Assembly: GCF_003675855.1 (NCBI RefSeq) | Contig: NZ_RCIH01000005.1 | Location: 186,001-250,000, forward strand | DNA length: 64,000 nucleotides | Source of the DNA: Halostella salina | GTDB lineage: Archaea > Halobacteriota > Halobacteria > Halobacteriales > Natronoarchaeaceae | Reading direction: 5' to 3' | Shown here: positions 5,368-10,263 of the stretch, one piece after another | How positions within the stretch are numbered: the first letter of the stretch is position 1 | How the letters are laid out: every line of letters starts with the position of its first letter | Notes under the pieces: generated by a model | The model's database searches: none | The model's input: only the letters and a program-made list of their open reading frames with translations | Told to the model about the DNA's origin: nothing | Program-made: the position numbers and the translations under genes

Positions 5368-6081
5368 GTGACCGTGACCGAAGCGATCTATCTGGACCGG
5401 TCGGACGCACGGGAGTTCGAAGCGACGGTCGAACGCGTCGCCGACGACCGGGTCGTCCTCGACCGCACGCTGTTCTACCCGGAGGGCGGCGGGCAGCCCA
5501 ACGACACCGGGACGCTCGCCACCGGCGGCGACGGCTGGCGTGTCACGGACGTGCAGAAGACGGACACGATCTACCACACGCTCGACGGCGACCCACCCGA
5601 CCCTGGGACGACGGTGACCGGCGAACTCGACTGGGAGCGCCGCGAGGTACACATGCGCTACCACACGGCCCAGCATCTCCTGTCGGCGCTCCTGCTCGAC
5701 GAGTACGACGCCGAGACGACGGGGAACCAGCTGTACGCCGACCGGGCCCGCATCGACTGCGGCTACGACCGCTTCTCCGAGACGGATCTGGCCGATATCA
5801 CCGCCCGGATGAACGAACTGATCGAACGGTCGATCCCCGTGGAGTGGTACGAACTCGACCGCGAGACCGCCGAGGAGACGCTCGACCCGGACCGGACGCG
5901 GATCCACCTGCTGCCCGACAGCATCACCGAAGTTCGGATCGTCGAGGTCGGCGACTACGACCGCACGGCCTGTGCCGGCACGCACGTCTCGAACACCGAC
6001 GCGATCGGCGAGTTCACCGCGACCGGCCGGGAGACCAAGGGGCCGGAGGAAGAACGCCTTTCCTTCGAACTGTCACCATGA
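5368..6081 (+). CDS. alaX: Alanyl-tRNA editing protein AlaX
   Basis: A free-standing trans-editing enzyme that hydrolyses Ser- or Gly-tRNA(Ala). The 237-residue length matches AlaX-M. The N-terminal beta-barrel part begins TEAIYLDRSDAREFEATV and contains the glycine-rich GGGQPNDTG. The zinc and catalytic site is H99-x3-H103 (YHTAQHLLSALL) with C202-x3-H206 (CAGTHV). All four residues are present, so it should be active. The GTG at 5368 is used; a second GTG two codons later is also possible. The stop overlaps the start of the DUF3179 gene (ATGA), indicating an operon, although no functional link between the two is known to me. Confidence 0.92.
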   Translation: MTVTEAIYLDRSDAREFEATVERVADDRVVLDRTLFYPEGGGQPNDTGTLATGGDGWRVTDVQKTDTIYHTLDGDPPDPGTTVTGELDWERREVHMRYHTAQHLLSALLLDEYDAETTGNQLYADRARIDCGYDRFSETDLADITARMNELIERSIPVEWYELDRETAEETLDPDRTRIHLLPDSITEVRIVEVGDYDRTACAGTHVSNTDAIGEFTATGRETKGPEEERLSFELSP

Positions 6082-7061
6082 ACGTGCGACAGGTGGTTCC
6101 GCGGGACGCGATCCCGAGCGTCGACGACCCCGAGTTCGCCGACGAGTACGAGGGCGACCCGGACGACCGCGTGATCGCTCTGCCCGACGCCAGCCCGGCG
6201 CGGGCGTATCCGGTTCGCTACCTCCACTACCACGAGGTGGTCAACGACGCAGTCCCCCTCGGGTCGGACGACTCGACGGGCGGGCCGGAGCCCGAGCGCC
6301 CCGTAGCGGTCACTTGGTGTCCGCTCTGTGGCAGCGCGGTCGTCTACGACCGGCGGGTCGACGACCACACGCTGGAGTTCGGTGTCTCGGGCAAACTGGC
6401 CGACGACGACCTCGTGCTGTACGACCGCGAGACCGACACCGAGTGGAAGCAGTCCAGCGGCGAAGCGATCGAGGGCCCGCTGACCGGCGAGACCCTGTCG
6501 GCGCTGCCGGCGGCGCTGACGACCTGGGACGAGTTCCGGGCGTCCCACCCCGACGGGGTCGTGCTCGCGCCGCCCGGCGGGAAGAGCGAGGCCAGCGGCG
6601 CGGGCGACGAGCCGGAACCGATCGACTACGACGACGCGCCGTACGAGGCGTACTTCGAGACCGAGGGGTTCGGGCTGGCGGCTCACCGCGGCGAGGGCGA
6701 GTCCCGCGAGTGGTCCCACCCGGACCTGGCCCCGAAGGACGTGGTGGTCGGGATCGAGCGCGGCGGCGACGCGGTCGGCGTGCCGCTGGAGCGCGTCGAG
6801 GCGGCTGGTGGCGTCGTTCACGTCACGGTCGGCGGGGACGACTTCGTCGTGTTCGCGACGCCGGACGGCGTCCACGCGTTCGAAACCGACCACCGGTTCG
6901 AGCCGGTCGACGACGGCGTGTTCCGGGCCGACGGCGCGCGCTGGGACGGCGCGACCGGCCGGAGCGACGACGGGCGGACGCTCGACCGCGCTCCCGTCCG
7001 TCGGCTGTTCGCCTTCGCCTGGTACGACGACCACGGCGACGCGTTCCACGACCCGGCGTAG
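6078..7061 (+). CDS. DUF3179 domain protein
   Basis: A 327-residue protein with the DUF3179 hallmark: a beta-rich region reading ARAYPVRYLHYHEVVND, followed by VTWCPLCGSAVVYDR with a CPLC motif near residue 78, then FGVSGKLADDDLVLYDRET. The family is widespread in archaea and bacteria and has no settled biochemical role. There is no signal peptide, so it is probably cytoplasmic. The ATG at 6078 overlaps the alaX stop. Residues 155-190 form a Gly/Glu/Pro-rich loop (EASGAGDEPEPID) that looks like a lineage-specific insertion. Confidence 0.85.
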   Translation: MNVRQVVPRDAIPSVDDPEFADEYEGDPDDRVIALPDASPARAYPVRYLHYHEVVNDAVPLGSDDSTGGPEPERPVAVTWCPLCGSAVVYDRRVDDHTLEFGVSGKLADDDLVLYDRETDTEWKQSSGEAIEGPLTGETLSALPAALTTWDEFRASHPDGVVLAPPGGKSEASGAGDEPEPIDYDDAPYEAYFETEGFGLAAHRGEGESREWSHPDLAPKDVVVGIERGGDAVGVPLERVEAAGGVVHVTVGGDDFVVFATPDGVHAFETDHRFEPVDDGVFRADGARWDGATGRSDDGRTLDRAPVRRLFAFAWYDDHGDAFHDPA

Positions 7062-7146
7062 GTGGCCTGTCGTCCGCTGTAGCCGGCGCGTTCCCGGCCG
7101 GTAGCCGGCGTATTACTACCCCGGTCCCGACCCTCGACGGGAGTGT

Positions 7147-7228
7147 GCCGCGGCTGGGCACGAGCGCGAGCCCACCGGCTTCGGCCGGCCCCGGCGACGG
7201 GTTGTAGGTTCGACTCCTACCCGCGGCG
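7147..7228 (+). ncRNA. tRNA-like structure lacking an anticodon loop (type II cloverleaf)
   Basis: An 82-nt cloverleaf can be folded by hand. The acceptor is seven perfect pairs (GCCGCGG 7147-7153 with CCGCGGC 7221-7227), with G7228 as discriminator. The D-like arm is GGGC 7156-7159 / GCCC 7170-7173 with a 10-nt loop. The anticodon position holds CCGGC-TTCG-GCCGG (7175-7188), a five-pair stem capped by a UUCG tetraloop, so there is no anticodon. A variable arm CCCG-GCGA-CGGG (7190-7201) is capped by a GNRA loop. The T arm is canonical: GTAGG-TTCGACT-CCTAC (7204-7220). Position 8 is C instead of U and the D loop lacks GG. A TATA-like TATTACTA (7111-7118) lies 30-36 bases upstream. It could be a decayed tRNA-Ser or a functional tRNA mimic. 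Confidence 0.55.
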
Positions 7229-7323
7229 TTGCGCCGACGCGGACGGATCCCGAATTCCGACGGTCGTTTCCTGCTGCGATCCGACACCACAAGGGTTTCG
7301 TATCGTCTCTCCCCACTCGGGAT

Positions 7324-8886: not shown

Positions 8887-10263
8887 CTAGTTCCGCAGTC
8901 GGTACGCCAGTGCCGCCCCGCCGACGATGACAACCAGCGCGCCTGCGACGCCGGCGACGAACGCGAGCGAGCCGCCGCTGCCCCCGTTCCCGCCGTCGCC
9001 GTCGCCGCCGATGAGGCCGCCGCCACCGTCGCCGTCGTCACCGTCGCCGCCGTTTCCGTTCCCGTCGTCCGGCAGTTCCGACGGCGCGAAGTCGTACATC
9101 GCCGCGGCGCAGGTTTCGATCTCCTCGGTCGTGAAGTTGGCCGAGTTGTGAACCTCGTAGCTCCCGTTTATCCCCTGCTCGCGCATCGTGGGGCCTTCCG
9201 AACCGGGACCGCCGCGCTCGGCGTCGTACGTCTCGTAGGGCGTGTACACCTCCCAGACGATCCGGCCCTCGGGCGTGATCTCGACGGTCCGGTGGCCCAT
9301 CCGGTCGCTGACCAGCGTGTTGCCGTTGGGGAGGCGGTCGGCGTCACGGGGTTCGTTCAGCCCCGTAACCGCCCACACCTGCTCCCACTCGTTCGCCTCG
9401 GCGTCGTAGGCGTACTCGACGACGCGATCGTTCTCGCTGTCGCCGACCAGGATCGTGCGCTCCCCGTCGGGACCGCGGAGGTGGTCGGGGTTGTGCTGCT
9501 CGTACAGGATGTCGTAGTTGTCGTCCTCGCCGAGCGTGAGGTCCTCCTCGACGTCGCCCGTCGTCCGGTTGACGAAGACGACCTTGTCGAAGTTCCGCGG
9601 CGAGATCATGAAGAGGTGGTCGCCGACCGGGTCCACGTCGTTGACGTGCGTCCAGTCGCCCTCGGGACCGCCGCCGCTCTCGGGGAACTGCTCGGGGTGA
9701 TTCTCGAACCGCCACTCCCAGACTACCTCGTCGCTCGTGACGTTGTACACGAGCAGGCGCTCGTGGCCCTCGCCCTTGTCCGCAATGACGATCTCGTGTT
9801 CGTTGAGGCGGTCGGCGTCGTGGGCGTCGTCGATCTGCGGCGTGGACTCGTCGTCCGGGTCGCCGTCGAAGTCACGGACCCACTCGTACTCGTTTCGTTC
9901 GGGGTCCAGCTTCCCGATCTTGGTGTTTCCGCCCTCGGTGGTGACGAACAGCAGGTCACCGTCCGGCGTCCGGTCCACGTCGTACGCGAACCAGCGGTCC
10001 CGGAGCGAGGCGTTGTGCGCCCAGTCGAACGAGCCGTCCGGCTCGTAGGACATCAGCATCGCGGGCCACTTCTCGTACCCGTCATCTGTCAGCCGCGTCC
10101 CCTGGATGCTGACGACCGTGTTCTCGTCGGGCTGTTGCTCCATCGTCCCGACACACGGGTTCGTCCCGTTTTCCTCCGACTGTACGTCCCCGGCGACGAC
10201 GCCCGGCACTGCCAACGCCGGGAGCGTCAACGCCACGACGACCACGAGCAAGGACCGACGCAT
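8887..10263 (-). CDS. Arylsulfotransferase-like surface protein, paralogue of the upstream gene
   Basis: A 458-residue secreted protein with signal peptide (MRRSLLVVVVALTLPALAVPG), ASST-like blades (DADRLPNGNTLVSDRMGHR, EITPEGRIVWEVYTPYETYD, GDWTHVNDVDPVGDH) and a C-terminal anchor (AFVAGVAGALVVIVGGAALAY then RLRN) preceded by a Gly/Asp-rich low-complexity linker encoded around 8985-9060. The blade sequences match the 7324 gene nearly motif for motif, including SENDRVVEY and NFDxxxxxxRxTxD, so the two are paralogues arranged tail to tail. There is no PGF motif before the anchor. Function as for the other copy: unproven. Confidence 0.75.
   Translation of the reverse strand: MRRSLLVVVVALTLPALAVPGVVAGDVQSEENGTNPCVGTMEQQPDENTVVSIQGTRLTDDGYEKWPAMLMSYEPDGSFDWAHNASLRDRWFAYDVDRTPDGDLLFVTTEGGNTKIGKLDPERNEYEWVRDFDGDPDDESTPQIDDAHDADRLNEHEIVIADKGEGHERLLVYNVTSDEVVWEWRFENHPEQFPESGGGPEGDWTHVNDVDPVGDHLFMISPRNFDKVVFVNRTTGDVEEDLTLGEDDNYDILYEQHNPDHLRGPDGERTILVGDSENDRVVEYAYDAEANEWEQVWAVTGLNEPRDADRLPNGNTLVSDRMGHRTVEITPEGRIVWEVYTPYETYDAERGGPGSEGPTMREQGINGSYEVHNSANFTTEEIETCAAAMYDFAPSELPDDGNGNGGDGDDGDGGGGLIGGDGDGGNGGSGGSLAFVAGVAGALVVIVGGAALAYRLRN

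Follow-up and report, generated by a model that had tools for sequence, protein, structure and literature searches.

An anticodon-less, seryl-type tRNA-like RNA gene kept across the genus Halostella and probably derived from an island tRNA-Ser

Introduction

Can a serine tRNA lose its decoding end and still be kept as a gene? The question is raised by a locus of Halostella salina, within a 64,000-nt stretch of contig NZ_RCIH01000005.1 that was analysed as a whole (the window), where a predicted cloverleaf carries a tetraloop at the place of the anticodon loop. SerRS recognises G73 and the variable arm, not the anticodon. Since the synthetase does not read the anticodon, loss of the decoding end is tolerable in principle, and a serine tRNA could undergo it yet stay chargeable. 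Selection appears to maintain such an RNA throughout the genus, probably for a role outside ordinary protein synthesis. We found no description of an anticodon-less, genus-conserved seryl tRNA-like gene in the literature.

Results

The element folds as a complete cloverleaf without an anticodon

The element lies on the + strand at 7147..7228, as delimited by ARAGORN, folding and conservation in five species, and has a predicted mature length of 82 nt. CCA is not encoded, and is likewise absent from the host tRNA genes whose 3' ends were listed. ARAGORN placed a 'tRNA-???' at 7146-7229 and assigned it an 'anticodon (tc)' of only 2 nt. The MFE fold of 7147-7228 is a complete cloverleaf of -47.3 kcal/mol (z = -2.4 relative to dinucleotide-shuffled sequences; of 200 such shuffles, 5 folded as well). 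Both agree with the original prediction of a cloverleaf with a UUCG tetraloop in place of the anticodon loop.

Fold and alignment place the 5' strand of a 7-bp acceptor stem (GCCGCGG/CCGCGGC) at 7147..7153, paired with 7221-7227, and the discriminator G73 at 7228..7228. Acceptor position 5 is C in the window copy and U in the four relatives, where it forms a U5.G68 wobble. C8 (7154) replaces U8 and is invariant in all five species. The D-like arm (7155..7174, UGGGC-ACGAGCGCGA-GCCCA) has 5 bp and a 10-nt loop, and the D-loop GG is absent from every copy; the loss of both U8 and this GG had been pointed out at the outset. The equivalent of the anticodon arm (7175..7188, CCGGC-UUCG-GCCGG) keeps G30-C40 and contains no anticodon. 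It is followed by a 15-nt type II variable region (7189..7203), made of C, a 4-bp arm with a GNRA cap (CCCG-GCGA-CGGG) and UU, and by a T arm (7204..7220, GUAGG-UUCGACU-CCUAC) that is invariant in all five species. All these features are on the + strand.

The element is confined to Halostella within its family and is under selection

We compared the source genome of the window (G000) with four relatives in the genus (G001-G004). A nucleotide search found the element in all five Halostella species and in none of the other genera of the family. A covariance model whose sole input was the element was run across the order (392 genomes) and the phylum (393 genomes); the five Halostella copies scored 104-112 bits and nothing elsewhere exceeded 72.5 bits. 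The carriers include Halostella pelagica DL-M4 (G004) and the MAG Halobacteriales archaeon QS_9_68_17 (G003). No copy was found in the phage, plasmid and viral-contig collections searched.

Between species the element is 90-100% identical, with 0-8 of its 82 positions differing, whilst the same species diverge at 4-fold sites by 32-50% for alaX and 26-46% for the neighbouring HD-domain gene. In G001 and G002 the element is identical over 82 nt although 45% of their alaX 4-fold sites differ. The 80 nt downstream are unalignable, with identity at background (about 50%). The element is present in all five species and diverges by 0-10%, compared with 26-50% for the 4-fold sites, which indicates that it is not there by chance; purifying selection on it is well supported by these comparisons.

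The shape is also preserved. All 26 base pairs form in each of the four distinct sequences, and a GNRA loop caps the variable arm in every copy (GCGA in the window copy, GAGA in G001-G003, GGAA in G004). The changes in stems include two that are wobble-compatible, in the acceptor and D stems, and one that is compensatory, C-G to U-A at the closing pair of the capped hairpin in G003. Covariation is thin: a formal test was underpowered with only four distinct sequences, and 135 of 500 shuffles reached the observed value. The hairpin cap is UUCG in four species, including G003 with its U-A closing pair, and a UUU triloop in G004. With these caps and all pairs retained, no copy can hold an anticodon and the shape is nonetheless kept. 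A functional decoding tRNA-Ser, which requires a 7-nt loop with a serine anticodon, was rejected, since the cap measures 3-4 nt in each of the five species. Among the observations that the original prediction named as counting against it were stems not conserved in close relatives and a conserved protein read through the region. The stems are kept in all five species, and a 1-nt deletion in G004 rules out the protein.

The element may also have its own promoter. The original prediction pointed to a TATA-like element upstream, and a TATA-like box (ATTACTAC, 7112..7119, + strand) ends 27 nt upstream of the predicted mature 5' terminus. In all five species an AT-rich box ending ACTA(A/C) sits exactly 27 nt upstream of nucleotide 1, in upstream sequence that is otherwise divergent, and AT-rich boxes of host tRNA genes lie at about the same distance. 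This constant spacing suggests a dedicated promoter with a very short leader.

Serine identity elements are retained

Serine identity was assessed by G73, a long variable region, G1-C72 and G30-C40 (PMC9976931). The element has G73, G1-C72, G30-C40 and a 15-nt variable region, and so the whole set tested. In the host, tRNA-Ser genes combine G73 with a variable region of 14-15 nt, whilst tRNA-Leu genes have 14 nt and no G73; G30-C40 occurs in three of the four host tRNA-Ser genes, the Ser(GCU) gene having G30.U40. The proposed seryl type is upheld by G73 and the 15-nt variable region, set against tRNA-Leu, by G30-C40 and G1-C72, and by the fact that the strongest matches to the model outside the genus are tRNA-Ser only. 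Charging by SerRS is plausible because these identity elements are retained (PMC9976931; PMC7609411). The U8 and G18-G19 elbow contacts general to tRNAs are lacking in all five species, and the missing U8 and G18/G19-Psi55/C56 contacts might lower recognition by SerRS or the CCA enzyme.

An Rfam scan gave nothing above threshold. Its only sub-threshold match was tRNA-Sec (RF01852), which at 24.4 bits fell short of the gathering score (47) and was rejected; tRNA-Sec has a long acceptor/T helix and a UCA anticodon, whereas the element has 7/5 arms and no anticodon. The source genome encodes one canonical SerRS and 44 ordinary tRNA genes, distinct from the element and including all four tRNA-Ser genes needed, so that the element is not required for decoding. 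In G003, serS (L103/L104, C20:163029-164254) appears split into two overlapping frames, probably through a sequencing error in this MAG.

The element probably descends from tRNA-Ser of haloarchaeal tRNA islands

The best matches outside the genus are tRNA-Ser(GCU) genes in dense tRNA clusters of many genera (66-72 bits), some of the clusters being plasmid-borne and adjoining a TROVE (Ro60-type) gene. Host tRNAs score at most 35.6 bits, and the phylum-wide matches in distant, small-genome archaea are ordinary tRNA-Ser(UGA). In a FastTree phylogeny the element and the island Ser(GCU) genes form a clade with local support of 0.999, which is indicative only, given an alignment of ~85 nt.

Haloarchaeal tRNA clusters and their TROVE genes have been described (PMC6333295). 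Their tRNA-Ser(GCU) genes (L067-L077, L135-L137) are homologous to the element over its whole length, and the position-by-position match is interrupted only at the D loop and by a 3-4 nt deletion. As to a possible intron-containing, split or permuted tRNA, whose anticodon would lie elsewhere or be restored by splicing, the element is a contiguous 82-nt cloverleaf without inserted sequence. Both have C8-U9, the same D-stem plan, the GNRA variable arm CCCCGGCGACGGGUU, UUCGACUCC, the T loop and G73. The island genes, however, carry anticodon GCU in a normal loop of 7 nt (CUGCUAC) and have the D-loop GG, whilst the element has a 3-4 nt cap and a longer D loop without GG. The element is also solitary, in a genus without a TROVE gene, unlike the island genes in their TROVE-linked clusters. 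Descent of the element from an island tRNA-Ser by loss of the anticodon loop is well supported by this homology, by which C8 is ancestral and common to the island tRNA-Ser genes.

Several features of the islands were recorded in passing. They (L061:7666-11668 in G024, L067-L076, L135-L137) hold 8-16 tRNA genes, often unannotated, in a conserved order (Gln-Asp-Pro-Ser-Ser-Ser-Leu-Leu-Tyr...) with a TROVE/Ro60-type gene adjoining, on both chromosomes and plasmids. A shrunken island in G118 (L077:1500-1659) has an intact tRNA-Ser(GCU) after a tRNA-Pro-like gene that ARAGORN reports as tRNA-??? with a 2-nt anticodon, possibly a decay intermediate. An island tRNA with a UCA anticodon in G215 (L068:2522-2592), tRNA-SeC according to ARAGORN, could be opal-reading or defective.

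The proximity to alaX is probably incidental

The position of the element just downstream of alaX, noted from the start, is syntenic in all five species. Upstream lie the HD gene, alaX (5368..6081, +), which encodes an AlaX-M-like alanyl-tRNA editing protein, and, in three of the five, a DUF3179 gene between alaX and the element (6078..7061, +). The genes downstream differ between species. In the window these are an arylsulfotransferase-like gene (PF05935; 7324-8766, +) and, convergent with it, a gene at 8887-10263 (-) that looks similar by eye.

It is tempting to link a seryl tRNA mimic with a neighbouring enzyme that edits mischarged Ser-tRNA(Ala), but the link is unproven. tRNA-Ala carries G3.U70, which underlies AlaX/AlaRS specificity; position 3-70 of the element is C3-G70. 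AlaX-M of this type is found in Halostella only within the family but in 148 of 392 genomes of the order, and 25 alaX loci examined in other genera had no such element. We therefore rejected joint gain of alaX and the element; their proximity is probably incidental and reflects inheritance of a single insertion.

Discussion

The analysis shows that the element can form the structure, is conserved, lacks an anticodon, is related by descent to the island tRNA-Ser genes and has a promoter-like box at constant spacing. From this we infer that the element is transcribed, processed and charged, and that it has a role off the ribosome. The reading we favour, with a probability of about 0.45, is that an island tRNA-Ser without its anticodon loop has been domesticated as a promoter-driven, tRNA-processed and serylated RNA that acts outside decoding. 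A tRNA-Ser(GCU) of a mobile island would have come to lie beside alaX in the ancestral Halostella chromosome, either by staying behind there or by being copied to this place. Its anticodon loop would have lost 3-4 nt to give a hairpin capped by UUCG or UUU, its D loop would have been remodelled, and the RNA gene would then have been kept. Transcription would start at a promoter of the element's own. RNase P and tRNase Z would recognise the intact acceptor and T arms and trim the transcript there, CCA would be added, and the ordinary SerRS would attach serine, reading G73 and the variable arm. As it cannot decode, the charged RNA would act away from decoding: it would either donate serine or bind, and so occupy, SerRS, EF1A or another tRNA-binding protein. 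If charged, it would be a clean natural case of an aminoacyl-RNA used away from the ribosome, with a traceable route from mobile tRNA island to domesticated RNA.

We regard as unlikely the more specific proposal that this anticodon-less RNA is charged by SerRS across the genus and passes its serine to a peptide, a lipid or the cell envelope as an acceptor outside the ribosome, which would possibly make it the first natural free-standing tRNA with a tetraloop for an anticodon loop. Nor did a genus-specific partner emerge that would back the favoured reading: searches across the genus for CDPS and LanB-like families gave nothing consistent, with the control genomes also silent, so that both families may yet be present, and FemAB gave a weak match in G000 only. 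Bacterial Y RNA (YrlA) is a tRNA mimic. It and the element both mimic tRNA, and a TROVE protein is encoded in the related islands, but the element has no Ro60-binding stem and TROVE/Ro60 was found in none of nine genomes of the family, the Deinobacterium control being positive. Membership of a Y RNA/Ro60 RNP, which would need Ro60 in the same genome, was rejected.

Among the alternatives to a charged RNA, the most serious is an uncharged tRNA mimic with a regulatory role, which is possible but less probable. It would serve as a sponge or decoy for SerRS, tRNase Z, RNase P or a modification enzyme, or its cloverleaf would stabilise or deliver a small RNA or a longer transcript, as in tRNA-Other of Bacillus cereus. 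That precedent (PMC3399842), the loss of the D-loop elbow motif and the retention of stems under a freely varying cap, as expected if shape is what matters, argue for such a regulator. The retention of every serine identity element examined argues against it, and a larger conserved RNA is unlikely given flanks that are poorly conserved save for the promoter-like box. A t-element, a cis signal at which RNase P and tRNase Z would cut an alaX-DUF3179 read-through transcript, we consider improbable. In each of the five species the element does follow alaX or DUF3179 directly on the same strand, and such signals are known in haloarchaea, upstream of 5S rRNA in Haloferax volcanii (PMC4326828). However, the gene on its 5' side varies between these two, the 25 alaX loci examined in other genera do without it, it has a conserved promoter-like box of its own, and a processing signal would need neither the serine identity set nor the variable arm.

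Still less probable is a leftover of defence or counter-defence, a seryl mimic proof against anticodon nucleases and inhibiting or absorbing a tRNA-cleaving enzyme, in keeping with a presumed anti-defence role of the island. The ancestor did reside in mobile tRNA islands, and mutations in the anticodon loop have been proposed as a means by which phage tRNAs escape anticodon nucleases (PMC10264068). Unlike typical arms-race genes, though, the element is fixed and nearly invariant across the genus, and no nuclease was recognised at its locus. Least probable, and in our view very doubtful, is a decaying tRNA pseudogene or functionless island remnant. The element does stem from a decoding tRNA and lacks anticodon, U8 and GG, and the original prediction allowed that it might be a decayed tRNA. 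A pseudogene should show neutral drift and broken stems, and neither is seen: it is kept in all species, its divergence is far below that of neutral sites, its changes preserve the stems, and C8 is ancestral.

The favoured reading, a domesticated and serylated RNA, would add to tRNA-like RNAs already known outside translation, namely tRNA-Other (PMC3399842), t-elements and allo-tRNAs. tRNA-Other is thought to have been recruited after inactivation of a tRNA (PMC3399842) and, like the element, is a tRNA-like RNA outside translation; it differs in being bacterial and of other sequence, in its linkage to a genomic island and in forming part of larger regulatory RNAs. Allo-tRNAs (reviewed in PMC7609411) resemble the element as Ser-type RNAs of unorthodox structure with SerRS identity elements, but are bacterial, with 8/4 or 9/3 acceptor/T arms and intact, diverse anticodons. 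The t-element of H. volcanii (PMC4326828) is likewise a haloarchaeal tRNA-like structure and potential RNase P/tRNase Z substrate. It is a cis processing signal upstream of 5S rRNA, whereas the element is an isolated gene with its own promoter-like box; assignment to the t-element class was rejected, the downstream genes not being conserved and no rRNA neighbour being recognised at the locus. The favoured reading is directly testable, since the gene is single-copy and at least one carrier, the strain Halostella pelagica DL-M4, has been completely sequenced.
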